Assembly: GCA_018241665.1 (NCBI GenBank)
Contig: JAFEDK010000004.1
Span: 62,001 to 126,000, forward strand
Source: Pseudomonadota bacterium
Lineage (GTDB): Bacteria; Pseudomonadota; Gammaproteobacteria; Burkholderiales; Rhodocyclaceae
Length of the DNA stretch: 64,000 bases
Direction: 5' to 3'
The notes under the pieces were generated by a model. That model saw only the letters and a program-made list of their open reading frames with translations. It was not told the origin of the DNA and did no database searches. A program made the translations under genes and the position numbers. Numbering within the stretch: position 1 is the first letter of the stretch; each line of letters starts with the position of its first letter. Of this stretch, positions 2,573 through 25,083 are shown piece by piece.

Positions 2573-2681
2573 GAACGTGCTCCTGATGTGCCGGCCGCCG
2601 CGAATTGGCTTCCGGGCAGAGTGAATGTGGAGTGCTCATGATAATGCAATTGTCATAATTCTGGTGCATCCCCCGGTCTTT

Positions 2682-3395: not shown

Positions 3396-4588
3396 GGCAG
3401 GCACAGGGCCACGTCCTCCGAAGCGGCTGCAGTAGGGGCCAGGAGCGGCAGTGAGATCTGTCGGGAGAGCGCGTGGAGCTGGCCTGCTGCCAGGGCGGTC
3501 AGGGTCGGCGCTTCCAGGTACTCGGTCGTTGTCTGCTTGTCCTGCGGGTTGATCCGGTGCTGTACAGGAGCCAGGCTGCGTCGCTCGCCGCCGAACAGCA
3601 GGACGCCTCGGCAAGGCCCTTGGGCCGAGGCCAGGCAGGGGCTTCCGTCGGTGCAGCGCCCGTAACGCATCATCTCGCTCCAGTTGCCGGACGCGTCGCG
3701 CCGTTCAATGTCGGTGCACGGGCCGTTCAGCTTGTTGAGGGCGGGCACGCCGCCGAACTGGAGGGGGCCGTGGGGCTGGGCCAGGGCCGGACTGGGCAGG
3801 CCGCCTTTTTCCAGACAGTCGGCGATGGCTTGCAGGCTGGCCTGGAGGTGCTGGGCGTAGTCGGTCCGGCGCTTCAGCTGCGCGAAGATCTCGCCGCCGC
3901 TCAGGCTGAGCAGCCGGTCATTGCCGGCGGCTGCGTCGATGCGTATTTCGGTGATTCCGTCTTGGGTGGGGCCGAAGGCCTCCACGTAATCCTCGAGCCG
4001 GGCGGCCTGGCCATCGCCGCAACGCCCCTGGCCGGGGCCACGTTGCTGATGGCCGAGGGGCGGACCGGGGGCGAAGACGATGGCCGCCGCAAGACCGAGC
4101 TGGTCGCCGGCGAGCACGACCGACTGGCCGTCCCGGTCAAGCAGGCGGAATTGGCCGACGCTGTCCCAGTTCAGGACGTCGGCCTTCGGGTTGTTCTTGA
4201 AACTGCCGGATACGGCGTACCACAGGCATTCGCCGGCGCCGTCGCGCAGGTCTGGCAGGTTGAGGGTCAGGTAGGGCAGGCGGCCGATGCTCGGCTGATC
4301 CTTGGTCCCGCAGGTTTCCGATGAGCCGTCGCCGTTCAGGTCGGGGCAGGGCAGGTAGCCGAAGTCGGCGTGGGGATGTTCGTGGTTGCGGTAATTGGCG
4401 GCGAAACCCAGCAGCGCATCCCGGGCGATTTCGAGGGCGCGGGTGGTCTGCGCATCCCGTCGCAGCTGGCGGGCCGCCCGATCGGCGCCGCTGTCGGTTC
4501 GTGCCAGCAGCCATCCGAGCCCGCCGAGCGACAGCAGAAGGATCAGGATGGGGAGCATCATGCCTCGCTGCCGGCGGGGGGCTGTCAT
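3392..4588 (-). CDS. Bitopic pilin-operon protein of unknown function
   Basis: A 398-residue protein with a basic N-terminus (MTAPRRQRG), one hydrophobic segment (MMLPILILLLSLGGLGWLLA, residues 10-29) and a large exported domain. There is no classical prepilin cleavage motif, although the arrangement resembles PilX- or GspK-like minor pilins. The exported part has a FGYLPCPDLNGDG segment with calcium-loop-like acidic residues, and six or more cysteines. It overlaps both neighbours by 4 bases (ATGA junctions at 4585-4588 and 3392-3395), so it is translationally coupled within the pilin operon. I do not recognise a named family; a tip or minor-pilin role is inferred from context only. Confidence 0.75.
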   Translation of the reverse strand: MTAPRRQRGMMLPILILLLSLGGLGWLLARTDSGADRAARQLRRDAQTTRALEIARDALLGFAANYRNHEHPHADFGYLPCPDLNGDGSSETCGTKDQPSIGRLPYLTLNLPDLRDGAGECLWYAVSGSFKNNPKADVLNWDSVGQFRLLDRDGQSVVLAGDQLGLAAAIVFAPGPPLGHQQRGPGQGRCGDGQAARLEDYVEAFGPTQDGITEIRIDAAAGNDRLLSLSGGEIFAQLKRRTDYAQHLQASLQAIADCLEKGGLPSPALAQPHGPLQFGGVPALNKLNGPCTDIERRDASGNWSEMMRYGRCTDGSPCLASAQGPCRGVLLFGGERRSLAPVQHRINPQDKQTTTEYLEAPTLTALAAGQLHALSRQISLPLLAPTAAASEDVALCLP

Positions 4589-11103: not shown

Positions 11104-11473
11104 GGGCGTGTTCCTGTAAATCGGCCGGTGGGGTGTCCAGCCTGACGACACACAATTTTTCGGATGGCGGATTGTCCTTGAGCAGCGTGATGACAGAGGG
11201 TTATTCGGGGCACATCAAAGGTGTGGCGTATTACCGATGGATGTGCAGCCCGCTGCTGGAGGATTGGTTTCCGCGCCGCCGCGAGGTGCTCCAGTAAGCG
11301 TGCATTTGTGCTTCATCGCCGCCATCTCGAGCATTGCACCGGGTCTGGGCGGGACGTAGGATGGTCAGCGCGTGCCGCATTACCGCGTGGCGGCGCGTTG
11401 GCCGGTGGCATGCTGGCCAGCAGGGTGGTTCAGGGGACCGGGGCTGATGTTCTGGGTATTGCCGTCACTGCAC
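11104..11473. other. Intergenic region between lipoprotein and T2SS operon
   Basis: About 370 bases between divergent genes. I see no convincing gene. A weak -24/-12-like sequence (TGGCCGG-N4-ATGCT) lies at 11399-11414, 60 bp before the first T2SS start. Its match is partial, and in GC-rich DNA such matches arise by chance. No strong sigma-70 promoter stands out. Confidence 0.5.
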
Positions 11474-11935
11474 ATGAAAAATAATCGGGCTTCGTGCCCC
11501 ATGCGGGCACCCGGGGGTTTGGGCTGCCGGCGGCGGCCGGGGGGATTCACCCTGCTGGAGCTGCTGGTGGTGATGACCATCATCGGCCTGCTTGCCGGGT
11601 ATGTCGGGCCGAAATTCTTCTCCCACATCGGCAAGTCCGAGATCAAGGCCGCGCGCGCCCAGATCGATGGTTTCGAGAAGGCGCTCGACCAGTTCCGGCT
11701 CGACGTCGGGCGTTATCCGACGACCGAGGAAGGGCTCAAGGCGCTGGTCACCAAGCCGGCGGAGCTGCCACGCTGGGACGGACCCTACCTGCGCAAGGCG
11801 GTACCGAACGACCCCTGGGGCAAGCCCTATCAATATGTCCTGCCTGGCGAGCACGGGGAGTTCGACCTTTATTCCCTTGGCCGCGATGGCCAGCCCGGTG
11901 GTACTGGCGACGCGGCCGATATCGGCAACTGGTAG
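11474..11935 (+). CDS. gspG: T2SS major pseudopilin GspG
   Basis: A 153-residue pseudopilin. A basic leader ends in the cleavage motif G/FTLLE, followed by a hydrophobic helix (LLVVMTIIGLLAGYVGPKFF). The C-terminal domain has the GspG signature RYPTTEEGLKALV, then WDGPYL, the DPWGKPYQY turn and the calcium-site region YSLGRDGQPGG. The start at 11474 is one of two reasonable ATGs; 11501 would give a shorter leader. It is first in the T2SS operon, with gspF five bases downstream. It should be processed by a prepilin peptidase encoded elsewhere and polymerise into the periplasmic pseudopilus. Confidence 0.93.
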   Translation: MKNNRASCPMRAPGGLGCRRRPGGFTLLELLVVMTIIGLLAGYVGPKFFSHIGKSEIKAARAQIDGFEKALDQFRLDVGRYPTTEEGLKALVTKPAELPRWDGPYLRKAVPNDPWGKPYQYVLPGEHGEFDLYSLGRDGQPGGTGDAADIGNW

Positions 11936-11940
11936 GCGCC

Positions 11941-13119
11941 ATGCGATTCCGCATCAGGGCGGTCACGGCCGCCAACGTGATCGAGGACATCGAGCTCGAA
12001 GCCGTCGACGAGGCGGCGGCCCGCAGCCTGGCTGAGGCGCAGGGGCTCGGCGTGCTGTCGGCTACGCTGCTGCGGTCGGGCGCGGTGCGCGGCGGGCGTT
12101 TTCCGTTGCTGCTGCTGAACCAGGAACTGCTCGCGCTGCTGACGGCCGGCATTCCACTGGCCGAATCCCTGAGTGCGTTGGCCGAGAAGGAGACGCGGCC
12201 TGCCGTCCGGCAGGTGCTGGCGGTGCTGATCGCCGCGCTGCGCGAGGGACGGCCGCTGTCGGCAGCATTGGCGGCCCGGCCGGACTGCTTCCCCGAACTG
12301 TACGTCGCCACCATGCGTGCGGCGGAGCGGACCAGCGATCTGGCCCCCGCCCTGGGGCGCTACATCGCTTACCAGCGGCAGATCGAATTCGTGCGCGACA
12401 GGCTGGTTGCCGCGGCGCTCTATCCCCTGCTGCTGCTGCTGGTGGGGGCGGCCGTCATGCTCTTCCTGCTGGTGTATGTGGTGCCGCGTTTCGCCCGTGT
12501 CTTCGAGACTGTCGGCGGGGATTTGCCATGGCTGTCCCGCCTGCTGCTCGACTGGGGGCGCCTGGTGGAGGGGCGGGGCGACGTGCTGGCGGTGCTGGCC
12601 TGCGGCGGCGTGGCCGGGCTGCTTGCCTTGCTGCGCCGGCAGGACATCTGGGCGGCGCTGCTGGGGCTGGCCTGGCGGCTCCCGCGGGTTGGGGGGCAGT
12701 TGCGGGTGTTCGAGCTGGCTCGGCTATACCGGACCTTGGGCATGCTGCTGCGGGGAGGCATTCCGGCGGTCGCCGCGATGGGCATGGTGGAGGGGCTGCT
12801 GTCGCCGCGCCTGCGTGCGGGCGTGGGTGCGGCAGCGGCTGACATCCGTAACGGCGAGCGTTTCTCGGCTGCCCTGCAGCGCCACGCCCTCGCCACGCCG
12901 GTGGCCCTGCGCATGCTGGCGGTCGGCGAGCGGGCCGGCCAGCTCGGTGAAATGCTCGAACGGGCGGCCGAGTTCCACGAAGAGGAGAGCGCCCGCCAGC
13001 TGGAGGTCGTGACGCGGCTGGCCGGCCCGCTGCTGATGTTGATCGTCGCGATGGCCGTGGGGTTGGTGCTGGTGATGCTTTACCTGCCCATCTTCCAGGT
13101 TGCGGAGAGCATTCAATGA
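11941..13119 (+). CDS. gspF: T2SS inner-membrane platform protein GspF
   Basis: A 392-residue polytopic protein with two T2SSF domains. The N-terminal region (VIEDIELEAVDEAAARSLAE) is the typical cytosolic start of GspF. Three hydrophobic segments follow the usual pattern: about residues 160-185 (YPLLLLLVGAAVMLFLLVYVVPRF), a second near 215-235, and a C-terminal one (LLMLIVAMAVGLVLVMLYLPIF). The second domain carries the family motif ALRMLAVGERAGQLGEML. It is the inner-membrane platform that couples the GspE ATPase to pseudopilus assembly. It overlaps gspE by 4 bases (ATGA at 13116). Confidence 0.94.
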   Translation: MRFRIRAVTAANVIEDIELEAVDEAAARSLAEAQGLGVLSATLLRSGAVRGGRFPLLLLNQELLALLTAGIPLAESLSALAEKETRPAVRQVLAVLIAALREGRPLSAALAARPDCFPELYVATMRAAERTSDLAPALGRYIAYQRQIEFVRDRLVAAALYPLLLLLVGAAVMLFLLVYVVPRFARVFETVGGDLPWLSRLLLDWGRLVEGRGDVLAVLACGGVAGLLALLRRQDIWAALLGLAWRLPRVGGQLRVFELARLYRTLGMLLRGGIPAVAAMGMVEGLLSPRLRAGVGAAAADIRNGERFSAALQRHALATPVALRMLAVGERAGQLGEMLERAAEFHEEESARQLEVVTRLAGPLLMLIVAMAVGLVLVMLYLPIFQVAESIQ

Positions 13120-14798
13120 ACCGGGACGACGTCTTTTCCGGCGCGCCACCCTTCTCCCTCGACACCCTGGCCGAGGCCGCAGGGCTCGCCCGGCGTTCCG
13201 GCGGCAAGGTGGTGGACGTCCTGGCACGGGAGGCGGGGACGGATTTCCCGCAGCGCCTGGCCGCCACCACCGGGATCATGCCCCTCGATCACCGGACCCT
13301 GTTTGCGCTGGAGCCGGATTTCGCGGTTCTATCCTTCGACACCGCCCTGCGCCGGGAGGCCCTGGCCCTCCGCGATGAGAGGGGCAGGCTGAGCGTCGCG
13401 CTGGTCGATCCCTTCGACACGGATCTGGTGGACGGACTCGGGGCGAGCTTGGCCGAAGCCTTTCAGCTGCGCCTGGTGGACCGGGACGATCTGGCCGCCT
13501 GCCTGGCCCGCCACGAGGCGAACCACCGGGTGGTGGCCGAGCTGCTCGACGGCAGTGCGGCGGCCGGCGACGGCGGAGGCGAGGATCTGTCCCTCAGGCG
13601 CATTGCCGGCGATGCCAGCCCGGTCGTCAAACTGGTCAATTCCACCCTCTACGACGCCATCCAGCAAGGCGCCAGCGACATTCACCTGGAATGCGTGCCG
13701 GGCGGGCTGGTGGTCAAGTTCCGGGTGGACGGCGTGCTGGCGCGGGTTGGCGGGGTGCAGGGCGGCGAACTGGCGGAACAGGCGGTTTCCCGGCTCAAGG
13801 TGCTGGCCGAACTGGATATCGCCGAGCGCCGGATCCCCCAGGATGGGCGCTTCAAGGTCCAGGCCGGCGGCCGCGCGATCGATTTCCGGGTGTCCATCAT
13901 GCCCAGCATCCATGGCGAAGATGCCGTGCTGCGCATCCTCGACAAGGAACACCTGACCCGCGAGATGGCCGGTTTGACGCTGGATTCCCTGGGCTTCGAC
14001 GCGACGGTGCGCAGCCAGCTGCGGCGCATGGCCGGCGAGCCCTACGGCATGTTGCTGGTGACCGGGCCGACCGGGTCGGGCAAGACAACCAGCCTCTACG
14101 CGCTGCTGTCGGAAACCAATACCGGGCAGGACAAGATCGTCACCATCGAGGACCCGGTGGAGTACCAGCTGCCCGGCGTGCTGCAGATCCCGGTGAACGA
14201 GAAGAAGGGGCTGGGCTTCGCCCGTGGCCTGCGCTCCATCCTGCGCCACGATCCGGACAAGATCATGGTCGGCGAGATCCGCGACCCGGAAACCGCCGAA
14301 ATTGCCGTCCAGGCCGCCCTCACCGGCCACCTCGTGTTCACCACGGTGCATGCCAACAATGCCTTCGACGTGATCGGGCGCTTCATGCACATGGGGGTCG
14401 ATCCCTACAACCTGGTGGCTGCCCTCAACGGGGTGGTGGCCCAGCGCCTGGTGCGCATCAACTGCCCGGGCTGCGCCGTCGACGTGGCGGTGGCACCGGC
14501 GCTGCTTGACGCGTCGGGCCTCGGTGCCGACGGCGCGGCTGCGGGCTACCGCTTTCGTGCCGGCACGGGCTGTGGCCAGTGTCGCGGCTCGGGCTACCGC
14601 GGCCGGCGGGCGATCGCCGAGGTGTTGCTGCTCGACGACGAGTTGCGTGACCTGATCGTGGCGCGCGCGCCGCTGCGCCAGCTCAAGGAGCGCGTGCGGC
14701 AGCGCGGCTTCGTCAGCCTGCGCCAGGCAGGGCTGGCCCTGGTGCGTGAGGGGCTCACCACTTTGCAGGAGTTGAACCGTGTCACGTTTGTGGCCTGA
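13116..14798 (+). CDS. gspE: T2SS assembly ATPase GspE
   Basis: A 560-residue secretion ATPase that powers pseudopilus assembly from the cytosolic face. An N-terminal T2SSE_N domain (first 150 residues) precedes the catalytic core: Walker A GPTGSGKTT about residues 317-325, Asp box TIEDPVEYQ, Walker B region MVGEIRDPETAEIA near 385, and the His box TTVHANNAF. A four-cysteine zinc module (CPGC near 450, CGQC near 486) follows, typical of GspE and PilB. The start overlaps gspF, and the end overlaps the next gene by 20 bases. Confidence 0.96.
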   Translation: MNRDDVFSGAPPFSLDTLAEAAGLARRSGGKVVDVLAREAGTDFPQRLAATTGIMPLDHRTLFALEPDFAVLSFDTALRREALALRDERGRLSVALVDPFDTDLVDGLGASLAEAFQLRLVDRDDLAACLARHEANHRVVAELLDGSAAAGDGGGEDLSLRRIAGDASPVVKLVNSTLYDAIQQGASDIHLECVPGGLVVKFRVDGVLARVGGVQGGELAEQAVSRLKVLAELDIAERRIPQDGRFKVQAGGRAIDFRVSIMPSIHGEDAVLRILDKEHLTREMAGLTLDSLGFDATVRSQLRRMAGEPYGMLLVTGPTGSGKTTSLYALLSETNTGQDKIVTIEDPVEYQLPGVLQIPVNEKKGLGFARGLRSILRHDPDKIMVGEIRDPETAEIAVQAALTGHLVFTTVHANNAFDVIGRFMHMGVDPYNLVAALNGVVAQRLVRINCPGCAVDVAVAPALLDASGLGADGAAAGYRFRAGTGCGQCRGSGYRGRRAIAEVLLLDDELRDLIVARAPLRQLKERVRQRGFVSLRQAGLALVREGLTTLQELNRVTFVA

Positions 14799-16038
14799 GC
14801 GGATCCGCCTGCACATCGGCCCGGCCAGCCTGCGCGTGGGCCGGCGCGGACGGGCGGACCTGGAGCTGCCGCTGGCCGCGGACTGGCCGGCGAGCCTCGC
14901 GGCGCTGCCGGAGCTGCCCCGCCATGCTCACCTGGAGGTGCGAGTGGCCGACTGCCATGCGCGCTACTTCCGCATCCTGTGGCCGGCAGGCTTGCAGCGG
15001 GGCGAGCGGGACAGCTGGCTGCGCCATCGTTTCGTGGAGATCTTCGGCAATGCCGATGGCTGGCGCGTGCTGGCCGACCGGGATGCGGTGGTTCATCCCT
15101 GCCTGGCGCTGGCTTTGCCCACGGCGCTGCTAGCGGCGGTGGACGATTTTTCCGTGCAGCGGGGCATGAGGCTGCACAGCCTGTCGGCGGATTTTGTCGA
15201 CAGTTACAACCTCCTCGACGGTGGGCTGGCGGCCGATGGGGCGCTGGCCTGCGCGCGCGACGGGCGGCTGACTCTCGGCCTGTGGCAGGGCGGACGCTGG
15301 CTGGCCATCCGCAGCCTGGCCGGTGCCAGCGTGGCGGAGAGCCTGGCGGGCCTGCTGCCCCAACTGGCCGGGCGTGGCGAGCAGCCCGCGGGTGGCACGC
15401 TCTACCTCGCCGACGCCACGGGCGTCGCCGGGCTACCCGCCGGCTGGCAGGCCGAGGCCGTGGATGGGCGATCGTCCCCGCGGCGCTTCGGCCTGCGGCG
15501 GGCGCCGCCCCCGCTGGCGCTGGACTTCGCCCAGCGGGGGCCACGCCTCGGCTGGGTCGGCGCACTGATGCTGGCCGCCGGCGTCGCTGCGCTGGCTGGC
15601 GTGATGCACGAATACGAGGTGCTGGAAAACCAGCGTGACGAGGCGCTCCGGCGGGGGGAACGCTTCAGGCGGGCCATCGACCGGCAGGCCGGCTTGCGCC
15701 CGGCGGCGGCCGGAGTGGTGAGCGAACAGGAGCTGCGGCCGGCGCTGGGCGTGGCCCGCCTGCTGCGGCGGGACTGGCCCGGCGTCTTCGCGGCCCTCGA
15801 GGGGGCTGCCGACGATCCGGGCATCGCCGTTTTAGGCGTGGAGCTCGAAGGGCCGCGGGGGACCGTCAAGCTGATGGGTGAGGCACGCAACCTGCCGGAG
15901 GTCTTCGCCTTCGCTAGACGCCTGGAGGGGGCCGGTGGGCTGGCCGAAGTGCGCCTGGTGAGCTACGCCTTCCAGGCATCGGCCAGCGTGCCGAGCGTCG
16001 GTTTCACGCTGGCGGCCCGCTGGGAGGGCAGGCCATGA
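14779..16038 (+). CDS. T2SS GspL-like assembly protein (PilM/PilN-like fusion)
   Basis: A 419-residue protein whose first 250 residues are cytosolic and resemble the actin-like fold of GspL/PilM. A single transmembrane helix follows near residues 255-275 (LGWVGALMLAAGVAALAGVM), then a coiled-coil segment (YEVLENQRDEALRRGERF) and a PilN-like ferredoxin fold. That architecture is GspL, the protein linking the GspE ATPase to the inner-membrane platform. Sequence identity to classical GspL looks low, so the assignment rests on topology and position between gspE and the GspM-like gene. It overlaps both neighbours, by 20 and 4 bases. Confidence 0.78.
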   Translation: MSRLWPERIRLHIGPASLRVGRRGRADLELPLAADWPASLAALPELPRHAHLEVRVADCHARYFRILWPAGLQRGERDSWLRHRFVEIFGNADGWRVLADRDAVVHPCLALALPTALLAAVDDFSVQRGMRLHSLSADFVDSYNLLDGGLAADGALACARDGRLTLGLWQGGRWLAIRSLAGASVAESLAGLLPQLAGRGEQPAGGTLYLADATGVAGLPAGWQAEAVDGRSSPRRFGLRRAPPPLALDFAQRGPRLGWVGALMLAAGVAALAGVMHEYEVLENQRDEALRRGERFRRAIDRQAGLRPAAAGVVSEQELRPALGVARLLRRDWPGVFAALEGAADDPGIAVLGVELEGPRGTVKLMGEARNLPEVFAFARRLEGAGGLAEVRLVSYAFQASASVPSVGFTLAARWEGRP

Positions 16039-16598
16039 GCGCGCGGACGAAGATCCTGCTCACCGGCGCGCAAGAGTCCGCCGGCCGGGCATTCCGGCGG
16101 GCCGGCTGGGGGGGCGTGCTCGGTTTCGCGGTGCTGGTCTGCGCGTTGAGCTTCGATTACAGCGGCAATCGCGTACTGGAGGCCGAGGCCGAGTCCCTGG
16201 GGCAGGAGGCACAGGCGCTGGCCCGGCGGCTGCACCAGCCGGTTCGTCCGCAGGCGTCGGCGCGCCAGCGTCTGGAGGCGTTCTACGCGGGCTTTCCAAT
16301 CGGTACGACCTTGCCTGACCTGCTGGTGCGCCTGCATGGCCATGCCCAGGCCCGCGGCGTGGCACTCGAGCGGGCCGACTACCGGACGGCGGTCGAGGTG
16401 GGGACGCCGCTGGAACGGGTGAGTCTCGACTTGCCCGCCCGCGGCAGCTATCCGGTATTGCGAGCCTGGCTCGACGACCTCGTGGCGGAAATGCCCGAGC
16501 TGGCGCTGGAGTCGGTGTCCTTGCGCCGCGAGCGCATCGATGAGCCGCAGCTGGAAGCCCGCGTGCGGCTGGCATTCTTCCTGCGCAGGGCGCCATGA
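16035..16598 (+). CDS. T2SS GspM/PilO-like protein
   Basis: A 187-residue bitopic protein: short cytosolic N-terminus, one hydrophobic helix (GVLGFAVLVCALSFDY, about residues 27-43), a coiled-coil stretch (LEAEAESLGQEAQALARRL), then an alpha/beta periplasmic domain. Topology and location directly after the GspL-like gene fit GspM or PilO, which heterodimerise with GspL/PilN to form the inner-membrane assembly platform. It overlaps both neighbours by 4 bases. Family assignment is by architecture rather than by a strong motif. Confidence 0.74.
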   Translation: MSARTKILLTGAQESAGRAFRRAGWGGVLGFAVLVCALSFDYSGNRVLEAEAESLGQEAQALARRLHQPVRPQASARQRLEAFYAGFPIGTTLPDLLVRLHGHAQARGVALERADYRTAVEVGTPLERVSLDLPARGSYPVLRAWLDDLVAEMPELALESVSLRRERIDEPQLEARVRLAFFLRRAP

Positions 16599-17083
16599 AA
16601 CGCCAGCACATCCTGGGCGCAGCCCTGCTCCTGACACTGGTCGCCAGTTGGTGGGCCGCCGTTGTCGACGGCGACGAGGAGCGCGCTGGCATGCCAGCGC
16701 GGGGGCCGCGCGCCGCCGCGCCCGCGGCGAAGGCGGGCAGTGTTGGCGGCCTGGAACTGCTCGACCGGCGCCCGCCGCCGCTGCGGCGGGAGGGCGTGGC
16801 GGTGGACCTCTTCGCCGCGCGCAGCTTCGAGCCGCCGCCGCCCGCCGCGCCGCCACCACCTCCGCCAAGTGCCCCGGCGCTGCCTTTCCGTTATCTCGGC
16901 ATGCTCGAGGAGGATGGCCGCCAGCTGGCTTTCCTGGCCGAGGGGGACACGCTGCGGGTGCTGCATGCCGGCGAGCAGATGGATGCCCGCTACCGGGTGA
17001 CGGCGATCCGCCGTGATCGCATCGACTTCCTGTATCTCCCGCTCAACCAGATCCAGAGCCTCGCCACGGGGGCCGTGCCATGA
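16595..17083 (+). CDS. T2SS GspC/PilP-like periplasmic connector
   Basis: A 162-residue protein with an N-terminal membrane anchor (ILGAALLLTLVASWWAAVV), a proline-rich linker (PPPPAAPPPPPPSAP, about residues 76-90), and a small C-terminal beta domain (FRYLGMLEEDGRQLAFLAEG) that matches the homology-region fold of GspC and PilP. Such proteins connect the inner-membrane platform to the secretin. It sits immediately before the secretin gene, overlapping it by 4 bases, which is the expected place. It lacks a PDZ or long coiled-coil tail. Confidence 0.75.
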   Translation: MKRQHILGAALLLTLVASWWAAVVDGDEERAGMPARGPRAAAPAAKAGSVGGLELLDRRPPPLRREGVAVDLFAARSFEPPPPAAPPPPPPSAPALPFRYLGMLEEDGRQLAFLAEGDTLRVLHAGEQMDARYRVTAIRRDRIDFLYLPLNQIQSLATGAVP

Positions 17084-19335
17084 CCACTCCGATCCTGCGG
17101 CGCCTGTCTGCCGCCTTGTGCCTGTTGCTGCTGTGTTGCGCGTGTACCTCCAACCGGGCGCTGGAGGAAAGCCGGCAGGCCTTTGCCGGCGGAAATCCGG
17201 AGAGCGCGCTGCGAGACCTGCGCGAGCGGGTTGGTGCCGAGCCGAAGAACCTCGAACTGCGTGCCTACTATCTGCGCCAGCGCGACATCCTGACCGTGCG
17301 CCAGTTGGCGATGGCCGAGCAGGCCCGCGTCGCCGGCCGTTTCGACGAGGCGGAGCAGGCCCTGGCGCTGGCCCGCCAGTTCGACCCCAACCATCCGCGC
17401 GTACTGGCCGGCGCCGAGGCGATTGCCGCCACGCGTCAGCGCCACGGGCAAGCCCTGGAGGCGGAGCAGCATTTTGCGCGTGGCGACCTGGCCGGGGCCG
17501 AAGTCCGCGTGCGTGCCGTGCTGGCCCAGGACCCGGCCCATGCGGGTGCGCGCAGCCTGCTGCGCCGCCTCGACGAGCGGGCCGCCACCCGCGACAACAC
17601 CCCGGCCGCACTGCAGGGGCCGCTGGCCAGGCCGGTCAGCCTGGAGTTCCGCGATGCGCCGCTGCGCGGCGTGTTCGAGGCCCTGTCGCGTGCCTCCGGG
17701 CTCAACTTCGTGTTCGACCGGGACGTGCGTGCCGATGCGAAAGTGACGATCTTCGTGCGCAACAACAGCATCGATGACGTGCTCAAGTTGTTGATGGTGA
17801 CCCAGCAGCTCGAGCGCAAGCTGCTCAACGGCAACTCGGTGCTGATCTATCCGAATACCCCGGCCAAACAGAAGGACTACCAGGAGTTCGTCACGCGCAG
17901 CTTCTATCTGGCCAATGCCAGCGTGGCCCAGGCCCAGGTGCTGGTGAAACAGATGGTCAAGAGCCGCGACGTGTTCGTCGACGAAAAGCTCAACCTGCTG
18001 ATCGTCAAGGACACCCCGGAGGCCGTTCGCCTGGTCGAGAAGCTGCTGGCCAGCCTGGATCTCGCCGAGCCTGAGGTGATGCTGGAGGTGGAGGTGATGG
18101 AGATCAGCCGCAACAAGCTCCTCGAGCTGGGGCTGCGCTTCCCTGACCAGATCGGCTATGGCCTGCTGCAGCCCAATACGACCAGTGCGGTGACCACCAC
18201 GACGGGGACGACCATCACGCAGAATCTGGGCGGCCAGCTGCTGCCCGGCAACGTGAGCCTGCGCAACACTGGCGCCCTGGTGCCCTACGTGGCCAATCCG
18301 GCCCTGCTGCTCAACCTGCATGATCAGGACGGCAGCTCCAACATCCTCGCCAATCCGCGCATCCGCGTGCGCAACCGGGACAAGGCGAAGATCCACATCG
18401 GCGAGAAGCTGCCGGTGTTCACCACCACCTCGACGGCCAACGTGGGGGTGTCGGCGTCGGTCAATTACCTGGACGTGGGCCTCAAGCTGGAGGTCGAGCC
18501 CTCCGTGCATCTGGATGACGAAGTGGCCATCAAGGTCAGCCTGGAGGTGAGCAGCATCGTCAAGGAGGTGATGGGGCCGTCCAGTTCCCTGGCCTACCAG
18601 GTGGGTACGCGCAGCGCAATCACGTCCCTGCGCCTGCGGGACGGGGAGACCCAGGTGCTGGCCGGCCTGATCAGCGACGAGGAGCGGACCTCGGCCAACC
18701 GCCTGCCGGGCTTCGGCGAAATGCCGGCGGTCGGGCGCTTGTTCAGCAGCCAGCGGGACAGCGAGAGCAAGACCGAGATCGTGCTGCTGATCACCCCGCG
18801 GGTGGTGCGCAACATCGTCCGCCCGGATCCGGCCACGGCCACCCTGGCCGCCGGGACGGAGTCGGCTGTCGGCGGGGCGCCGCTGCAACTGGGGCCGCAG
18901 GCCTCGGCTGGCGTGTCCTTCAGTCCGGCGGGCGCCATCCCGGCGGCGCCCGCCGTGGTACTGCCTGCGTCCGTGTCCGCCACGGCGCCGGTGGTGGACA
19001 GTCCGTTCAGCCTGCTGGTGCCAGAGGAGGTCGGGGGGGGCGATGAATTCACGGTCAGCGTGCAGTTGCTCCTCGACGGCCTGGAGAGCGGCAGCGTCGT
19101 TCTCCGCTACGATCCGGCGCTGCTCATTCCGGCGGACGATCCCGGCGCTACCGGCGGGACGAGGACGCTGAACCTGCAGCTCGGCAGCCCGAACCGGGGC
19201 GGGGCGCGCTTCCGTGTCCGCCAGGGGGCTTTCGGTGGGGCCGTCTTCGAGCTGGCCGGCAGCAGCCTGCGGGTCGGCGGCGCGGAGCGTCAGCTGACGC
19301 TGCCGGCGCCGGCCGTGGTGCGCGTCCGTCCCTAG
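17080..19335 (+). CDS. gspD: T2SS secretin GspD with N-terminal TPR and C-terminal cohesin-like domain
   Basis: A 751-residue outer-membrane secretin. The signal peptide ends in a lipobox-like LLCCAC, then a TPR-like region (to about residue 170) replaces the usual N0 start. N-domains follow (SLEFRDAPLRGVFEALSRASG), then the secretin pore (SSNILANPRIRVRNRDKAKI; TEIVLLITPRVV at about 565-577). After a low-complexity Ala/Pro linker, residues 645-751 form an extra beta domain (DEFTVSVQLLLDG, GSVVLRYDPALL) that looks like a cohesin. A dockerin-like tail is found on an exported protein 3 kb downstream. It is the last T2SS core gene and overlaps the previous gene by 4 bases. Confidence 0.93.
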   Translation: MTTPILRRLSAALCLLLLCCACTSNRALEESRQAFAGGNPESALRDLRERVGAEPKNLELRAYYLRQRDILTVRQLAMAEQARVAGRFDEAEQALALARQFDPNHPRVLAGAEAIAATRQRHGQALEAEQHFARGDLAGAEVRVRAVLAQDPAHAGARSLLRRLDERAATRDNTPAALQGPLARPVSLEFRDAPLRGVFEALSRASGLNFVFDRDVRADAKVTIFVRNNSIDDVLKLLMVTQQLERKLLNGNSVLIYPNTPAKQKDYQEFVTRSFYLANASVAQAQVLVKQMVKSRDVFVDEKLNLLIVKDTPEAVRLVEKLLASLDLAEPEVMLEVEVMEISRNKLLELGLRFPDQIGYGLLQPNTTSAVTTTTGTTITQNLGGQLLPGNVSLRNTGALVPYVANPALLLNLHDQDGSSNILANPRIRVRNRDKAKIHIGEKLPVFTTTSTANVGVSASVNYLDVGLKLEVEPSVHLDDEVAIKVSLEVSSIVKEVMGPSSSLAYQVGTRSAITSLRLRDGETQVLAGLISDEERTSANRLPGFGEMPAVGRLFSSQRDSESKTEIVLLITPRVVRNIVRPDPATATLAAGTESAVGGAPLQLGPQASAGVSFSPAGAIPAAPAVVLPASVSATAPVVDSPFSLLVPEEVGGGDEFTVSVQLLLDGLESGSVVLRYDPALLIPADDPGATGGTRTLNLQLGSPNRGGARFRVRQGAFGGAVFELAGSSLRVGGAERQLTLPAPAVVRVRP

Positions 19336-19345
19336 GCTGGCGACG

Positions 19346-19816
19346 ATGCGGGCGCGGGGCTTCACGCTTATCGAGATGGTGGTCACGGTGGCCATCGTCG
19401 GGATCCTGGCGTCCATCGCCGTGCCGGTGCTGCAGCTGACCGTGCAGCGTGCCCGGGAGAGCGAGCTGCGCTTGGCCCTGCGCCAGATCCGCGAGGGGAT
19501 CGACACCTACAAGCGCCTCGCCGACGAAGGGCGGATTGCCCGTCCGGCCGACGGTAGCGGCTACCCGCCGCGGCTGTCCGACCTGGCTGCGGGGCTGTCC
19601 GACCTGCGTTCGCCCCTGCCCCGAAAGATCTACATCCTGCGCCGGATTCCCCGCGACCCGCTGCATCCGGATCCCAAGGTGCCGGCCGAGGAGACCTGGG
19701 GGCTGCGCAGCTACGCCAGTCCGCCGGATGCCCCCGCCGAGGGGGATGACGTGTTCGACGTGTTTTCGCGCGCCGAGGGCCTTGGCCTGAACGGCATCCG
19801 CTACCGGGAGTGGTGA
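19346..19816 (+). CDS. T2SS pseudopilin (minor, GspG/GspH-like)
   Basis: A 156-residue pseudopilin with a four-residue leader (MRAR), cleavage motif G/FTLIE and hydrophobic helix (VVTVAIVGILASIAVPVL). The soluble part has PLPRKIYILRRIPRDPLHPD and EETWGLRSYASPPD, a pattern seen in pilin-like proteins of this operon type (GspG-like but without its calcium loop). It sits 10 bases after the secretin gene and directly before another pseudopilin. Its exact subunit class (H, I or G-like) is not clear. Confidence 0.86.
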   Translation: MRARGFTLIEMVVTVAIVGILASIAVPVLQLTVQRARESELRLALRQIREGIDTYKRLADEGRIARPADGSGYPPRLSDLAAGLSDLRSPLPRKIYILRRIPRDPLHPDPKVPAEETWGLRSYASPPDAPAEGDDVFDVFSRAEGLGLNGIRYREW

Positions 19817-19817
19817 G

Positions 19818-20210
19818 GTGATGGACTGCGCAAGGCGCCGGCTGGCGCGTGGCTTCACGCTGGTGGAACTGCTGGTGGTGATGGCGATCGTCGCGCTGTT
19901 GCTGGCGATCGCCGCGCCGCGTTATTTCGGTCATCTGGAAAAGGCCCGGGAAGCCGCCCTGCTGGAGACGCTGGCCGTCACCCGCGATGCCATCGACAAG
20001 TTCTACGGGGATGCCGGGCGCTATCCCCGCGACCTCGACGAGCTGGTGAGCCGGCGCTACCTGCGTGCGCTGCCCCTCGACCCGCTGACCGAGAGGGGCG
20101 ACAGCTGGCAGCTGACCCCGGCACCGGACGGCACCAACGGCGGGGTTTCGGACCTGCATAGCGGTGCGGAAGGGCTTGCCCGCGACGGGCGCCGCTACGG
20201 CGAGCTATGA
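19818..20210 (+). CDS. T2SS pseudopilin (GspG-like)
   Basis: A 130-residue pseudopilin with a basic leader, cleavage motif G/FTLVE and a hydrophobic helix (LLVVMAIVALLLAIAAPRYF). The soluble domain starts with a GspG-like DKFYGDAGRYPRDLDEL segment and ends with GAEGLARDGRRY. Two starts are possible: GTG at 19818, spaced well from GGAG, or the adjacent ATG at 19821; the protein differs by one residue. It follows the preceding pseudopilin by one base and overlaps the next gene by 4. Confidence 0.88.
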   Translation: MMDCARRRLARGFTLVELLVVMAIVALLLAIAAPRYFGHLEKAREAALLETLAVTRDAIDKFYGDAGRYPRDLDELVSRRYLRALPLDPLTERGDSWQLTPAPDGTNGGVSDLHSGAEGLARDGRRYGEL

Positions 20211-20716
20211 GTCCGCGCCACCGCCAGGCAGGAGGCCTCTATCTGCTGATGCTGTTTGCCGTCTTTGGCCTGGGCCTGGGGCTGGCCCGTTTTGGCAGCG
20301 TCTGGTCGACGACGGCATGGCGCGAACGGGAGACCGAGCTGATCTTTGCCGGTGGTGAAATCGCCCGCGCCATCGCGCGCTATCGCGCGGACTCCCCGGC
20401 CGGGCGTAGCGACTTCCCGCAAACCCTTGGCGATTTGCTCGAGGACCGCCGTGTGCCCTACGTGCGCCGCCATCTGCGCCGCCTGTACCGGGATCCGATG
20501 ACGGGGCTGGCGGACTGGGTGCCGGTCCGGGAGGGCGAGCGGATCGTCGGTGTGCGCAGCCGCTCTGAGCGGGAACCCCTGCGCAGCGGGGCGCTGCCCG
20601 ACTTCATCCGGGTGAAGCCGCCGCGGGAGGGGAGTGTCCATTACTCCGACTGGATCTTCCGCATCGATCCGCTGGCGCCGGCTACACCCGCCCTGACCGA
20701 GGCCCGGCGCCCCTGA
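20207..20716 (+). CDS. T2SS pilin-like protein without classical cleavage motif
   Basis: A 169-residue protein with a basic start (MSPRHRQAGG), a hydrophobic helix (LYLLMLFAVFGLGLGLARFG) and a soluble domain. The G/LYLLM junction resembles a degenerate prepilin site but lacks the Phe and the conserved Glu5, as in GspK-type tip subunits. The soluble part contains RRLYRDPMTGLADWVPV, similar to processed pilin-like proteins found in T2SS clusters of this kind. It closes the operon and overlaps the preceding pseudopilin by 4 bases. Confidence 0.78.
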   Translation: MSPRHRQAGGLYLLMLFAVFGLGLGLARFGSVWSTTAWRERETELIFAGGEIARAIARYRADSPAGRSDFPQTLGDLLEDRRVPYVRRHLRRLYRDPMTGLADWVPVREGERIVGVRSRSEREPLRSGALPDFIRVKPPREGSVHYSDWIFRIDPLAPATPALTEARRP

Positions 20717-20834
20717 AGCCTCTCCCTTGGATGGCCCGTGCCATCGTCCGGCAGGTGCTCCCCTGATCTGGCAAATTCGCCGGCAGCCGGGATGACCCTG
20801 CTGCTATGTCGGTTTTTTTTACAAATTCCGTATT

Positions 20835-20873
20835 GTTGAATAATGGATATATGGAAAAAACCATAAATTCAAC
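20835..20873. repeat. AT-rich inverted repeat upstream of exported-protein genes
   Basis: Outer arms GTTGAAT and ATTCAAC flank a nested ATGG-A6-CCAT palindrome within a 39-bp AT-rich island. It lies 13 bp upstream of a -24/-12-like sequence and about 90 bp before the small Ig-like protein gene. It has no T-run and is better placed as an operator than a terminator. The factor is unknown. Confidence 0.5.
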
Positions 20874-20885
20874 GAGTTCGATTTG

Positions 20886-20901
20886 TGGTATGGGAAATGC
20901 G
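20886..20901 (+). promoter_or_regulatory. Possible sigma-54 (-24/-12) promoter
   Basis: TGGTATG-N4-ATGCG gives the required GG-N10-GC spacing, 61 bp before the next start codon. Two of the -24 bases and two of the -12 bases deviate from consensus, so this is a moderate match. PEP-CTERM genes are known to be sigma-54 controlled through PrsK/PrsR in some relatives, which makes the site plausible here. Confidence 0.4.
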
Positions 20902-20961
20902 TGCCGAAGGGGTGGATGGTAGTGATGGTTGCTTGGTTTGTCTTCGCAAGGGGAGAAAATT

Positions 20962-21303
20962 ATGTGCAACGGGTACAGTCATCTGCGTTTCATTCTTACC
21001 GGCTGTCTGGCGGTGCTGGCTGCCAGCGTTCATGCCGGTGGCCCCACGCTCAGCGGTCCTTCATCCATCACGCTCAGTGAGCGGGCCGTGTTCAACGGTG
21101 GCAACTTCCCTCCCAGCAGTGCCTTGACCGTCGTGGTCACCGATCCCGCAGGCAAGCAGAGTTCGCGGTCGGTTGCCAGTAGCGCCAGCGGTACTTTCCA
21201 GTATGAGCTGAGTGCCGGCGCCACCGGGCGCTATGAAATCAAGGTGGTGGACGGCAAGGGGGCGCCCCTCGGTTCCGCCCTGGTCGTTCCGGTCAATCCC
21301 TGA
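20962..21303 (+). CDS. Small exported Ig-like protein
   Basis: A 113-residue protein with a signal peptide (FILTGCLAVLAASVHAG) and an immunoglobulin-like beta sandwich of about 85 residues (SGPSSITLSERAVFNGGNFP, then TVVVTDPAGKQSS and GRYEIKVVDGKG), similar in pattern to Ig-like or invasin-type repeats that mediate surface adhesion. The ATG at 20962 is preceded by GGGAGA. It is the first of four exported proteins after the T2SS operon. It has no anchor, so it is probably secreted or bound to another surface protein. Confidence 0.8.
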   Translation: MCNGYSHLRFILTGCLAVLAASVHAGGPTLSGPSSITLSERAVFNGGNFPPSSALTVVVTDPAGKQSSRSVASSASGTFQYELSAGATGRYEIKVVDGKGAPLGSALVVPVNP

Positions 21304-21326
21304 TTCCGTCCTCCAGGGAGACAACC

Positions 21327-22424
21327 ATGGATAACAAGCGTGCCTGGCGGGCGGGGCTTGCCGGGGGAGTTCTTGCGTCGCTGTGCGTTGGTGCCGCCTG
21401 GGCCGCCGGGCCGGGCGTCCTGTTCGTGTCCAACCGCGATGGCCACATGCAGATCTACCGCGTGGCGGACGACGGTGGTGCGGAAACCCGCCTGACCTTC
21501 AGCCAGGGCGGGAACAATCAGCCCGCCTGGTCGCCGGACGGGCGGCGGATCGCCTTTACCTCGACCCGCGACGGAAATCCGGAAATCTACGTGTCCAATG
21601 CGGACGGCAGTGACGCCCGCCGGCTGACCAATGATCCGGCCATCGACGTGCGGCCCGCCTGGTCGCCGGATGGTGCCCGGATCGCCTTCGTGTCGACCCG
21701 CGAAGGGCGCAGCAACATCCACGTTATGAATGCGGACGGCAGCGCGCAGCGGGCCGTCACCGCGGCTAGCGGCGAACTGAGCGGGGGGGCGCCGATCTGG
21801 TCGCCCGACGGGAAGACGCTGTATTTCCTGATGGGCGTCGGCAACAAGAACCAGCTGCACGCCATTCAGGTGGATGGCAGCGGCCTCAAGGACCTCAGCT
21901 CGGCGATTTCGCGGGGTGGCAAGGGAGAGGCCGATCTGTCCCCCGATGGCCGCTGGCTGGTATTCACCACCGCGGAGGACAAGCAGCCGGTCAATCTGGT
22001 GGTGATGCGCTCGGATGGTTCGGAGGCACGGCAGATCACCCGTGAGCAGGGCGACAACTATTCGCCGCACTGGTCGCCGGACGGCCGGCATATCGCCTTC
22101 GTGTCCAGCCGCGACGACCTCGTCCGCTCGGAGATCTACGTGGCCAATGCCGATGGAACGGCGCCCCGCAATGTCTCCAATCACCCTCGGGACGATTTCG
22201 AGCCACGTTGGGTGGATGGCCGCACGGTGGTTTTCGCCAGCATGCGCGCGCCCATCACTCAACTGTACCGGGTGGATATCGAAGCGGCGCAGCCGCAGCG
22301 CATCACCCATAGCCAGTCCCTTGAACTGGAACCCACGCCGTTTGCCGGCTCGCCGCTGCAATCCGGCCTGGCGGACGGGCGCGACTGGCGCGCGTCCCTC
22401 GTCCTGAACCGCTCATCCCGTTAG
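21327..22424 (+). CDS. Exported TolB-like PD40 beta-propeller protein
   Basis: A 365-residue protein with a signal peptide ending GAAWAAG and at least five PD40/WD40-like repeats with the consensus AWSPDGRRIAFTSTRDGN (for example near residues 68, 112, 152, 205 and 248), the blade motif of the TolB C-terminal domain. The TolB N-terminal domain is missing, so this is a free-standing propeller rather than a Tol-Pal component. It lies 23 bp after the Ig-like gene and 10 bp before the dockerin-tailed propeller gene, suggesting one transcript. A protein-binding scaffold role outside the cytosol is inferred. Confidence 0.88.
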   Translation: MDNKRAWRAGLAGGVLASLCVGAAWAAGPGVLFVSNRDGHMQIYRVADDGGAETRLTFSQGGNNQPAWSPDGRRIAFTSTRDGNPEIYVSNADGSDARRLTNDPAIDVRPAWSPDGARIAFVSTREGRSNIHVMNADGSAQRAVTAASGELSGGAPIWSPDGKTLYFLMGVGNKNQLHAIQVDGSGLKDLSSAISRGGKGEADLSPDGRWLVFTTAEDKQPVNLVVMRSDGSEARQITREQGDNYSPHWSPDGRHIAFVSSRDDLVRSEIYVANADGTAPRNVSNHPRDDFEPRWVDGRTVVFASMRAPITQLYRVDIEAAQPQRITHSQSLELEPTPFAGSPLQSGLADGRDWRASLVLNRSSR

Positions 22425-22434
22425 GAAAGCCATC

Positions 22435-24246
22435 ATGACCAAGAACAGAACGCTCAAACTGAGCCAGATCGTCCTCTCGGTTGGCTGTGCCTTGACCTGT
22501 ATGCAGGCCGGTGCCGCCGGCAAGACCTATACCCTCGATGCCGATTTCGATCTGGGCACGGCGGTCAACGTCAATCACAACGCGCCGAACAGCAACCAGC
22601 TGCAACTCAACACGGTGACCTCGACCTTTCCGGTGCTGTGGGTCGCCAATGCGGGGGAGGACACGGTCAGCAAGATCGACACGCTGAACAACAAGGAGAT
22701 CGCGCGTTATCGCACCTGGTTCGGCCCGGCGGGCCAGCCCGGCTACTATGCCCACCTTGGCGCGCCGTGGACGGGGCCAGCGCCGTCACGTACGGCGGTG
22801 GACAAGGACGGCAACGCCTATGTGCTGAATCGCCACTTCGAAGGCCGGCCGGCGATGCTGATGAAGATCCTGACCCAGGGCGGGATCGACCGTAATGGCA
22901 ACAGCGTCATCGACACCTCGGCGGATACGGACAACAGCGGCGGCATCGGCGCCGGCGAGATCCTGCCGCTGGCGGACTCGAACGGTAACGGGGTTCTCGA
23001 CCCCGCCGAGCTTACCGATGAGCGCGTGGCCTGGGCCGTTACGGTCGGCCCGGCCAACGGACTCGGACGCTCCCTGTGCATCGGTACCGACGGGCATCTG
23101 TGGGTGGGCCTCTACAACTCGCAGACCTATTACAAGGTCAGCTCCGTCAATGGCGCGATCCTGGCCGGACCGGTCAGCACCGCCCCGACTGCCGGGCAAC
23201 CCAGCGCCGGCAGCTGGACGCCCTATGGCTGCCTGATCGATGCCAACGGGACCCTGTGGTCTGCGTCACTGACGGGGGTGCTCGGCAAGATCACCAATAC
23301 CCAGAGCAACGTCGGGCCGTGGACTGTTTCCTCCTTCGGCAGCAGCTACCAGAACTACGGTATCGCACTGGGCAACGGCATGGTCTATCTGGGCGCGATC
23401 GGCAACGCGGTCAGCTATGTCCAGTTCAACCCGGCCACCAATACGTTCTCCCTGCCGGCCCAGGGGCCTGGCTACTATTCCACGGGGATCGGCGTGGACG
23501 GCGCTGGCGACATCATCACCGGGCCGTACGGATCGGGCGGGCTGACCAAATACCATGCCAACGGCACGATCGCGTGGACGGCGCCGACCCAGCTGGCCAG
23601 TGAAACCCGGGGCGTGATCCCGGACCAGGACAACAACCTGTGGCAGGTCAGCCGTACCGGCAACCGGATCATGAAGTACCGGGGCAGTGACGGGGCGCCC
23701 CTCGGCATGGTGCAGGTCGGCGACAACCCCTACACCTACAGCGATGCGAGCGGATCGACGGTGCTGGGGCAAACCACCCCGAGCGGCAACTGGGCGGCCA
23801 TCTACGACGGTGGTGCCGCGGGTGCAAAGTGGGGGACGGTCAGCTGGCACGAGCTGGTGCCGACCGGAGGTTCCCTGACGGTCAAGGTGCGCTGGGCCGA
23901 CCTGCAGGCCAATCTGCCGCTGCAACCCTGGACTCCGGTGAGCAACAACGTGGCGTTCAATGGCACCGGGCGTTTCATCCAGGTACAGGCCGATCTGGGG
24001 GCCAATGCGCAGAACCAGTCGCCGGTCCTGTATGACCTGACGATCGCCGGTATCAGCACCGCCGTGTGCGATGTGGACGGGGATGGCGACATCGACCAGA
24101 ACGACCTCGCCCTGATCAGCAAGGGGCGCGGGCAGACGCCGACCGCCAACGACCCGCGGGATGCCAATCGTGACGGGAAGATCGATCCGCTGGATGTGAA
24201 GGTCTGCATTCCCAAGTGCACGCGGGCCAACTGCGCGATCCAGTAA
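22435..24246 (+). CDS. Exported NHL-like propeller with C-terminal dockerin-like domain
   Basis: A 603-residue exported protein. A signal peptide ends near AGAAG. Residues 60-440 form repeated beta segments of the NHL/SMP-30 type (VLWVANAGEDTVSKIDT, SRTAVDKDGNAYVLN, NNLWQVSRTGNRIMKY). An inserted calcium-loop pair lies at about 150-195 (DRNGNSVID, DSNGNGVLD). The last 60 residues contain two EF-hand-like loops, DVDGDGDIDQNDL and DANRDGKIDPLDV, the duplicated layout of type I dockerins, then a cysteine-containing end. Dockerins bind cohesins through calcium; the secretin upstream ends in a cohesin-like domain, so this is its candidate partner. Confidence 0.87.
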   Translation: MTKNRTLKLSQIVLSVGCALTCMQAGAAGKTYTLDADFDLGTAVNVNHNAPNSNQLQLNTVTSTFPVLWVANAGEDTVSKIDTLNNKEIARYRTWFGPAGQPGYYAHLGAPWTGPAPSRTAVDKDGNAYVLNRHFEGRPAMLMKILTQGGIDRNGNSVIDTSADTDNSGGIGAGEILPLADSNGNGVLDPAELTDERVAWAVTVGPANGLGRSLCIGTDGHLWVGLYNSQTYYKVSSVNGAILAGPVSTAPTAGQPSAGSWTPYGCLIDANGTLWSASLTGVLGKITNTQSNVGPWTVSSFGSSYQNYGIALGNGMVYLGAIGNAVSYVQFNPATNTFSLPAQGPGYYSTGIGVDGAGDIITGPYGSGGLTKYHANGTIAWTAPTQLASETRGVIPDQDNNLWQVSRTGNRIMKYRGSDGAPLGMVQVGDNPYTYSDASGSTVLGQTTPSGNWAAIYDGGAAGAKWGTVSWHELVPTGGSLTVKVRWADLQANLPLQPWTPVSNNVAFNGTGRFIQVQADLGANAQNQSPVLYDLTIAGISTAVCDVDGDGDIDQNDLALISKGRGQTPTANDPRDANRDGKIDPLDVKVCIPKCTRANCAIQ

Positions 24247-24318
24247 ATGCGTGACCCGGCTCCGGCAGGTTGCCGGGGCCGCCCAAGATTACTTGAGTTA
24301 GCCAAGGGAGTGCTCATC

Positions 24319-25083
24319 ATGAAAATGTCGCGAATTGCCGCCGGGCTGATGCTGTCCCTGGCCGCGGCTGGCGCCCACGCTGCGCTGCTTTCCGATCTGC
24401 TGAGCGGCGGCAGCATCGTTGCCGGGGACAAGTTGTTCGACAGCTGGAAGCTCGTCAGCTACACCGCGTCGGATCTCAATCGTTCATTCAATGCGTCCAA
24501 CATCGACGTCCAGGCGCTCAGTGACGGTGGCGACAAGCCCGGCCCCGGTCTGCGTTTTACGGCGTCGCGGAATGAACTGAGCGTCACCGGCGACGGCGTG
24601 TTTGGCTTCGTCGACCTGATGTTCGGTTTCCGGGTGTCCGTTTTCGACCCCGCCCGGCGGATCTCGGACAACTCGCTGTCCTACGCTTCAGGGGGATCGA
24701 CACTGAGCTGGACGGTAGACGGCAGCTACGACCTTGGTACGTATATCCGTGAAGTGATCGGCACGGCCGAGGGGCTCGATGACCTGGGGCAAAAGAACAT
24801 CGAGTTCAGCCAGCTGGGCGATCCGCTATCCGGCAGCAGCGGGACCACCAAGATTTCGGATTCGGCCGCGTTCGCGCCGCAGCAGACTGCCTGGGTAACC
24901 AAGAACATCCTGGTGTGGGCGGTGGATACGACGGATACCGCCGTCCTCACCCAGTTTGACCAGCGCTTCTCGCAGACCCAGGTTCCGGAGCCCGGCAGCT
25001 TTGCGCTGTTGAGTCTCGGTTTGCTTGGACTGGGCTGGATGCGTCGGAGCTCCTGCAAAAATAACTTGGCAAGAATCGGGTAG
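24319..25083 (+). CDS. PEP-CTERM sorting-domain exported protein
   Basis: A 254-residue exported protein with a signal peptide (AGLMLSLAAAGAHA) and a C-terminal PEP-CTERM signal: VPEPGS, a hydrophobic stretch (FALLSLGLLGLGW) and a basic end (MRRSSCKNN). Such proteins are cleaved and processed by an exosortase (XrtA/EpsH), not seen in this window, and are linked to exopolysaccharide and floc formation in relatives. The body is beta-rich with no recognisable enzyme motif. The start at 24319 follows AAGGGAG. The 3' end overlaps the promoter of the downstream initiator tRNA. Confidence 0.9.
   Translation: MKMSRIAAGLMLSLAAAGAHAALLSDLLSGGSIVAGDKLFDSWKLVSYTASDLNRSFNASNIDVQALSDGGDKPGPGLRFTASRNELSVTGDGVFGFVDLMFGFRVSVFDPARRISDNSLSYASGGSTLSWTVDGSYDLGTYIREVIGTAEGLDDLGQKNIEFSQLGDPLSGSSGTTKISDSAAFAPQQTAWVTKNILVWAVDTTDTAVLTQFDQRFSQTQVPEPGSFALLSLGLLGLGWMRRSSCKNNLARIG

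Follow-up and report, generated by a model that had tools for sequence, protein, structure and literature searches.

We have found that the secretin of a type II secretion system (T2SS) in a Rhodocyclaceae bacterium carries behind its pore an additional C-terminal domain, which profile comparisons assign to the cohesin family in a shortened form. The gene lies in a 64,000-nt stretch of contig JAFEDK010000004.1 (assembly GCA_018241665.1, positions 62,001 to 126,000); the whole stretch is called the window below, and coordinates are those of the window unless a locus is named. The tail is an accessory module of the T2SS that is inherited with the secretin, and a dockerin-bearing propeller protein encoded downstream belongs to a separately inherited cassette. 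On balance we lean towards a reading in which the tail would be a periplasmic adaptor of the T2SS, and in which the propeller would most likely bind the PEP-CTERM protein encoded next to it. A sequence-only reading of the same DNA, which described the open reading frames (ORFs) of the secretin and the propeller accurately, had proposed that tail and dockerin form a pair. The secretin and its tail are located as follows.

17080-19335, forward strand: gspD-like secretin, 751 residues (PF00263, 2.7e-38; PF03958, 2e-10)
19000..19332, forward strand: predicted C-terminal shortened cohesin-family domain, residues 641-751 (profile evidence through relatives)

The PF00263 match to the pore stops at residue 577 and is followed by ~174 residues: a short conserved stretch where the S-domain would be, then a linker rich in Pro and Ala, and finally a domain of ~110 residues. 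PF00963, the Pfam cohesin family, gave no direct match to the tail of the window secretin. At the same position in relatives, domains that pass PF00963 were found on 15 secretins from 14 of 120 genomes. Fourteen of these 15 tails make up profile A2, which was built without the window; all 14 aligned tails match PF00963 individually again, as expected for sequences chosen from PF00963 matches. Among solved structures, A2 matched cohesins at E 1.4e-9, and the A2 HMM matches the window tail at E 3.5e-5. In profile-profile comparisons with A2, a probability of 96% (E 3e-9) was obtained for profile A1, made of same-genus tails, and of 98.9% for profile A3, made of the window tail and its kin. A3 matched solved cohesins from E 8.5e-7, including the NagJ cohesin (2ozn) at 5.6e-5; the seven best matches of this search are cohesins, and a designed Ig protein and a flagellin are among the weaker ones. 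Since PF00963-positive tails at the same position bridge the profiles, the window tail can be linked to cohesins, and by these comparisons it is a shortened cohesin-family domain. The cohesin-like tail of the sequence-only reading thus holds as a kinship traced through relatives, though the direct Pfam search is negative and the domain is shortened.

Aligned with the PF00963-positive tails, those of the window lineage are shorter by ~18-20 residues behind the YDP motif, around strands 4-5 of the nine-strand cohesin jelly roll. In classical cohesins, strand 5 contributes to the face that binds the dockerin. The tail is under purifying selection and evolves faster than the pore; the linker that joins it is fast-evolving as well (only pairs with defined dS <1.5 were used: 55/55 for the pore, 35/55 for the linker and 52/55 for the tail). 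Among the matches listed for open-licence PubMed Central, no title or beginning of an abstract reports a secretin with a cohesin, and none of its papers combines GspD with a cohesin domain; domain databases do list secretin-cohesin architectures.

This secretin was detected at E 1e-60 in 52 of the 120 relatives, and the tail is present in all 11 same-genus genomes that have it (the window included). An even sample of the order comprised 320 genomes, with at most seven candidates scored per genome. Profile A4 matched at E 1e-30 in 117 of them, and 63 have the full tail, defined as an A4 match reaching position 283 or beyond of 304, that is, through the cohesin (G228 was counted from a contig-edge match, 74-303); the remaining A4 matches end at position 208 or earlier. 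On a quick tree of the secretin core with 68 secretins, the tail label needs eight changes, four of which are forced by strongly supported branches. The tree over-represents tailed secretins, since its rows were found partly by a profile containing the tail; 68 of 70 rows were kept after removal of two cut at a locus edge, and eight of 78 had been dropped earlier as identical. The tail seems to be an optional module that this secretion system has had for a long time.

The propeller gene stands at the third place of a four-gene cassette downstream of the T2SS genes.

20929..21303, forward strand: small exported protein of Ig-like type, opening the cassette (Ig-type matches in Pfam weak and under the cut-offs)
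21327..22424, forward strand: TolB-like beta-propeller with PD40 repeats (PF07676, 4.7e-55)
22435..24246, forward strand: exported propeller protein with a C-terminal dockerin (ORF and PF00404)
24070..24201, forward strand: predicted dockerin-type module, residues 546-589 of the propeller protein (PF00404, close kin and a solved-structure match)
24319..25083, forward strand: PEP-CTERM surface protein, proposed partner or anchor of the dockerin (PF07589, 4.3e-07); its ORF opens at 24247, and the Met at 24319 is the likelier start

The sequence-only reading placed the propeller three genes downstream of the secretin; it is in fact the sixth gene after it, with five ORFs between the two (three pseudopilin-like genes, the small Ig-like gene and the TolB-like gene). 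The dockerin-like end that it described for this protein was borne out. The last 67 residues contain two EF-type calcium loops in duplicated order, and PF00404 is reached at 22.8 bits in the scan of window proteins (cut-off 22.9) and at 27.7 bits, over the cut-off, in the genome search, where it is the sole match. The PF00404 match stops at 50 of 57 positions, and a short Cys-rich end (24202-24243), which follows the module directly, stands in place of the second helix. Of the solved structures, chain 2jnk/2ozn matches best (E 5.5e-5), closely followed by EF-hand calcium-binding proteins. The C-terminus of the propeller is, by these borderline matches, a candidate dockerin-type module. The module is capped by cysteines (24064-24243), with one Cys immediately ahead of loop 1 and several clustered behind loop 2; a similar Cys-rich dockerin end recurs in genomes G027, G052, G086, G087, G098 and G102 (kin in L121-L129).

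Homologues of the propeller (residues 1-536) were found at E 1e-10 besides the window only in G052 and G102 (118 genomes searched). All three copies carry the dockerin and have the small and TolB-like genes alongside; in the cassettes of G052 and G102 the small Ig-like protein has weak homologues, and the TolB-like protein has homologues as well. The G+C content of the cassette genes (20929-25083) is 0.61-0.67 versus 0.69-0.71 in the preceding T2SS genes, in line with a separate acquisition. The 40 secretin loci of relatives that were searched (BLAST, E 1e-5), several of them short and ended by contig edges, showed no homologue of any of the four cassette genes next to the T2SS operon.

A PEP-CTERM-type gene is directly adjacent in eight of the 11 places found with the window dockerin as query; of the other three, two are dockerins that form part of longer ORFs in G102, and the third is a marginal match in G072. 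The adjacent gene is cohesin-like in six of the eight: G052, G086, G087, G102:C17 and two in G027. The cohesin passes the Pfam cut-off in G027 and falls below it in G052 and G087, and in G102 and G086 it was recognised by profile comparison; the sorting motif of the adjacent protein is under the cut-off in G086 and has no Pfam match in G102. Thus both other copies of the cassette, in G052 and G102, have a cohesin-like anchored protein beside the propeller. In the window and in G098 the adjacent PEP-CTERM gene belongs to another family that is not cohesin-like. Further adjacent pairs of a dockerin gene and a cohesin-PEP-CTERM gene occur in G012, G126 and G261 (the G261 cohesin being under the Pfam cut-off). 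The window PEP-CTERM protein has a single near-full-length homologue in the two samples, in G098 (51% identity), and partial, mostly C-terminal, matches in 12 other relatives. The G098 homologue directly follows the dockerin most like that of the window (70%), and the rest of that dockerin protein differs. Because G098 pairs both homologues in spite of this differing remainder, the dockerin and the PEP-CTERM protein seem, by gene order, to travel together. A search of open-licence PubMed Central found no paper on PEP-CTERM with dockerin.

The occurrence of tail and dockerin was compared across the same samples, with genome lists compiled by eye from the search results. For the relatives two dockerin queries were used, PF00404 and the last 67 residues of the window propeller, because PF00404 misses some dockerins of the window type (for example those of G052 and G087). 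Nine of the 11 tailed genomes of the genus match neither query; the other two are the genome of the window and G019, whose dockerin lies inside an 11,900-codon ORF. Among the relatives, neither query finds a dockerin in 27 of 35 tailed genomes. These 35 comprise 32 read as tailed plus G084, G086 and G109, added through the A4 search; some weaker secretins without a tail reading (e.g. those of G029, G033 and G038) were counted as untailed. PF00404, the one dockerin query used for the order sample, goes unmatched in 48 of its 63 full-tail genomes; as this model misses some close kin of the window dockerin, 48 is an upper bound. Conversely, G012, G052 and G087 have dockerin genes, and this secretin was not detected in them at E 1e-60 (in G087 not at E 1e-30 either). 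Tail and dockerin are thus mostly inherited separately, and each occurs in the absence of the other, a pattern that the sequence-only reading had itself named as speaking against its proposal; this leaves the functional pairing that it proposed with no clear support. Very large proteins (thousands of residues) with internal dockerin modules were seen in G019:C46, in G046:C35 and in genomes of families f29 and f6; several of these ORFs hold cohesin modules too, and many of the f29 and f6 dockerins lie inside ORFs of thousands of codons.

The T2SS operon to which the secretin belongs is composed as follows; homologues of its six named genes upstream of the secretin (11372..17083) are present in operons of relatives.

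11372-11935, forward strand: gspG-like gene (over the NCBIfam cut-off for GspG)
within 11494-13119, forward strand: gspF-like gene (named by sequence look and gene order)
13116-14798, forward strand: gspE-like gene (named likewise)
14779-16038, forward strand: gspL-like gene (named likewise)
16035-16598, forward strand: gspM-like gene (named likewise)
16595-17083, forward strand: gspC-like gene (named likewise; protein without a Pfam match)
19346-19816, 19818-20210 and 20207-20716, forward strand: three pseudopilin-like genes that close the conserved operon

The first two pseudopilin-like proteins have the Pfam N_methyl motif; the third (20207-20716) has no Pfam match, and its gene adjoins that of the secretin in most of the relatives' loci searched (40). 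The secretin itself scores under the cut-off of the GspD equivalog TIGR02517 (182 vs 351 bits) and has a TPR-like N-terminus, under the Pfam cut-off. Secretin, ATPase, platform and major pseudopilin genes stand together in this one operon, the ATPase and platform being assigned by look only, and on these assignments the window has the core genes of a T2SS in a single operon. In one locus (L113:4797-8639) the secretin ORF continues in frame into pseudopilin sequence, a candidate fusion or frameshift. Away from the T2SS operon, two prepilin-like genes with a third gene alongside are found on the minus strand (1916-4588).

In solved T2SS secretins only the beta-lip and an amphipathic loop enter the outer membrane, the remainder being periplasmic, according to PMC6532946 and PMC3542185. 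The window tail sits behind the position of the S-domain and so, judging from known secretins, the C-terminus of the window secretin should face the periplasm. The shortened cohesin-family domain would then hang by its flexible linker on the periplasmic side. A second observation concerns GspC, whose C-terminal domain is implicated in the selection of T2SS substrates in PMC12369372. A PF00963 cohesin ends a GspC-like protein in G116, G212 and G338 (L131:6993-8138, L249:9219-10328 and L250:6026-7060), and in G116 and G212 the secretin is tail-less. Pfam finds nothing in the GspC-like proteins of the window and of three relatives, and PDZ gave no match in these four or in the three cohesin-bearing ones. 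A cohesin on GspC-like proteins where the secretins are tail-less suggests a periplasmic adaptor module, and on the simplest reading this adaptor of the T2SS would be mounted on either partner of the GspC-GspD contact. The tail would most likely bind cargo or a part of the machine near the pore entrance. After export, the dockerin of the propeller would most likely bind the PEP-CTERM protein encoded directly downstream, which would fill the place that a cohesin-like anchored protein holds in the cassettes of G052 and G102. Homology, gene order and patterns of inheritance are observed here; the periplasmic location, the adaptor function and the partner of the dockerin are deduced from them and from known secretins.

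Several results weigh against this reading. Single-sequence structure prediction of the tail failed, with a pLDDT of 38. No secretin was found in G338, and the gene for the cohesin-bearing GspC-like protein of G212 lies away from the secretin operon. Outside the sorting motif, no cohesin similarity was found for the window PEP-CTERM protein; if it is a receptor, it would be one of another kind, and its candidacy derives from gene linkage in two genomes. An adjacency reading that covered dockerin-like proteins other than the very large ones found no adjacent cohesin at those of G098:C15, G098:C19, G108, G182, G194, G266, G288, G296, G311, G321:C3, G321:C5, G345 and G365. Absence of the dockerin is over-counted by PF00404 alone, which misses those in G052 and G087 that the window-dockerin query finds. 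Tail and dockerin are also associated in raw counts: PF00404 was found in 15/63 full-tail versus 11/257 other genomes of the order sample (p 8e-6) and, among its secretin genomes, in 15/63 tailed versus 3/54 tail-less ones (p 0.009); for the relatives, a dockerin by either query was found in 8/35 tailed versus 6/85 others (p 0.025). The association is weaker once secretin presence is held constant, with 8/35 tailed versus 1/17 untailed among the 52 relatives with the secretin (p 0.24). In the order sample it fades when families f29 and f6 are left out, a choice made after seeing the data (6/51 versus 3/54, p 0.31).

The main rival to a cargo-binding adaptor is an assembly role, in which the tail would be a structural element (a substitute for the pilotin, a clamp between subunits or a contact for GspC) with no part in handling cargo. 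The tail comes after the S-domain position, and the S-domain of known secretins is a binding site for pilotin lipoproteins (PMC6532946, PMC3542185); a cohesin can sit instead on GspC, the direct partner of the secretin; and the tail is present in many genomes in which no ligand for it was found. However, the tail was gained or lost several times while the system stayed (the eight changes, four forced, mentioned above), and fast evolution, of the linker and of the tail compared with the pore, fits a binding module better than a structural part; we regard the assembly role as possible but doubtful. The tether of the sequence-only reading, in which the pore itself holds its dockerin-tagged product on the cell surface, has the correct domain types and genes ~3 kb apart in its favour. 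It is nevertheless highly improbable, because the C-terminal side of known secretins stays in the periplasm (PMC6532946); tail and dockerin are, moreover, mostly inherited separately, and dockerin cassettes usually bring an anchored partner of their own.

A pairing inside the periplasm would avoid the surface: the secretin cohesin would bind the dockerin there and recruit the propeller, before the PEP-CTERM anchor captures it outside. Besides the tail no cohesin-like domain was found in this genome, and besides the propeller no PF00404 match. Entry 2ozn contains both a chain matched by profile A3 and one matched by the dockerin, the raw association of tail with dockerins points the same way, and G000 and G098, in both of which the neighbour of the dockerin is not cohesin-like, possess a cohesin-tailed secretin. 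Such a hand-over seems unlikely to us in view of the tailed genomes that match neither dockerin query (9/11 in the genus, 27/35 among the relatives), the segment around strands 4-5 missing from the window tail, where the dockerin-binding face would include strand 5, and the 40 other secretin loci searched, in none of which the tail and dockerin genes are neighbours. A bolder version, to which we give little credence, would make cohesins exchangeable modules of cargo selection in T2SSs that have no PDZ domain. Mounted on the secretin C-terminus or in the PDZ slot of GspC, they would catch dockerin cargo in the periplasm and hand it to a PEP-CTERM surface receptor, so that one tag would serve as export signal and surface address. 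We retain, as the account we lean towards, a periplasmic adaptor and a dockerin cassette of separate descent.

Comparison with known systems places the tail on a familiar machine. With PulD, EpsD and ExeD, which are GspD proteins with an S-domain, the window secretin shares the pore, the N-domains, an operon with GspE-, GspF- and GspG-like genes and a C-terminal region behind the pore; it differs in the linker with the cohesin-family domain, in its score under the TIGR02517 cut-off and in the TPR-like N-terminus. The PDZ domain of GspC/EpsC is likewise an accessory C-terminal domain of the periplasmic part of the machine, and in G116, G212 and G338 the cohesin ends the GspC-like protein; the window module is of a different family and sits on the secretin, and a role in cargo choice would be conjectural there. 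Entry 2ozn holds the non-cellulosomal cohesin-dockerin pair NagJ/NagH of C. perfringens; its NagJ chain is found by A3, and its partner chain by the dockerin of the propeller. The NagJ and NagH modules join secreted glycosidases, whereas the window module sits on a secretion machine, where pairing is unsupported. Only the domain families are common to the window system and the cellulosome; with one PF00404 place and no PF00963 place, the genome lacks the scaffoldin of several cohesins and the several dockerin enzymes that mark a cellulosome. As in PEP-CTERM/exosortase systems, anchor-type proteins beside dockerin genes carry PF07589 or a similar end. Several of them carry a cohesin in addition, unlike that of the window, which has one near-full-length homologue and no recognisable cohesin.

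A module found on either the secretin or GspC is a more interesting result than the pair proposed in the sequence-only reading. The cassette would represent a small Gram-negative unit for surface attachment, consisting of a dockerin protein and an anchored partner, one version of which has a partner that is not recognisably a cohesin. How a T2SS chooses its cargo is a long-standing open question. A cohesin on the secretin or, in some relatives, in the PDZ position of GspC offers a handle on this choice, as cohesins are a well-studied family of binding domains and biochemical methods can isolate what such a domain binds.

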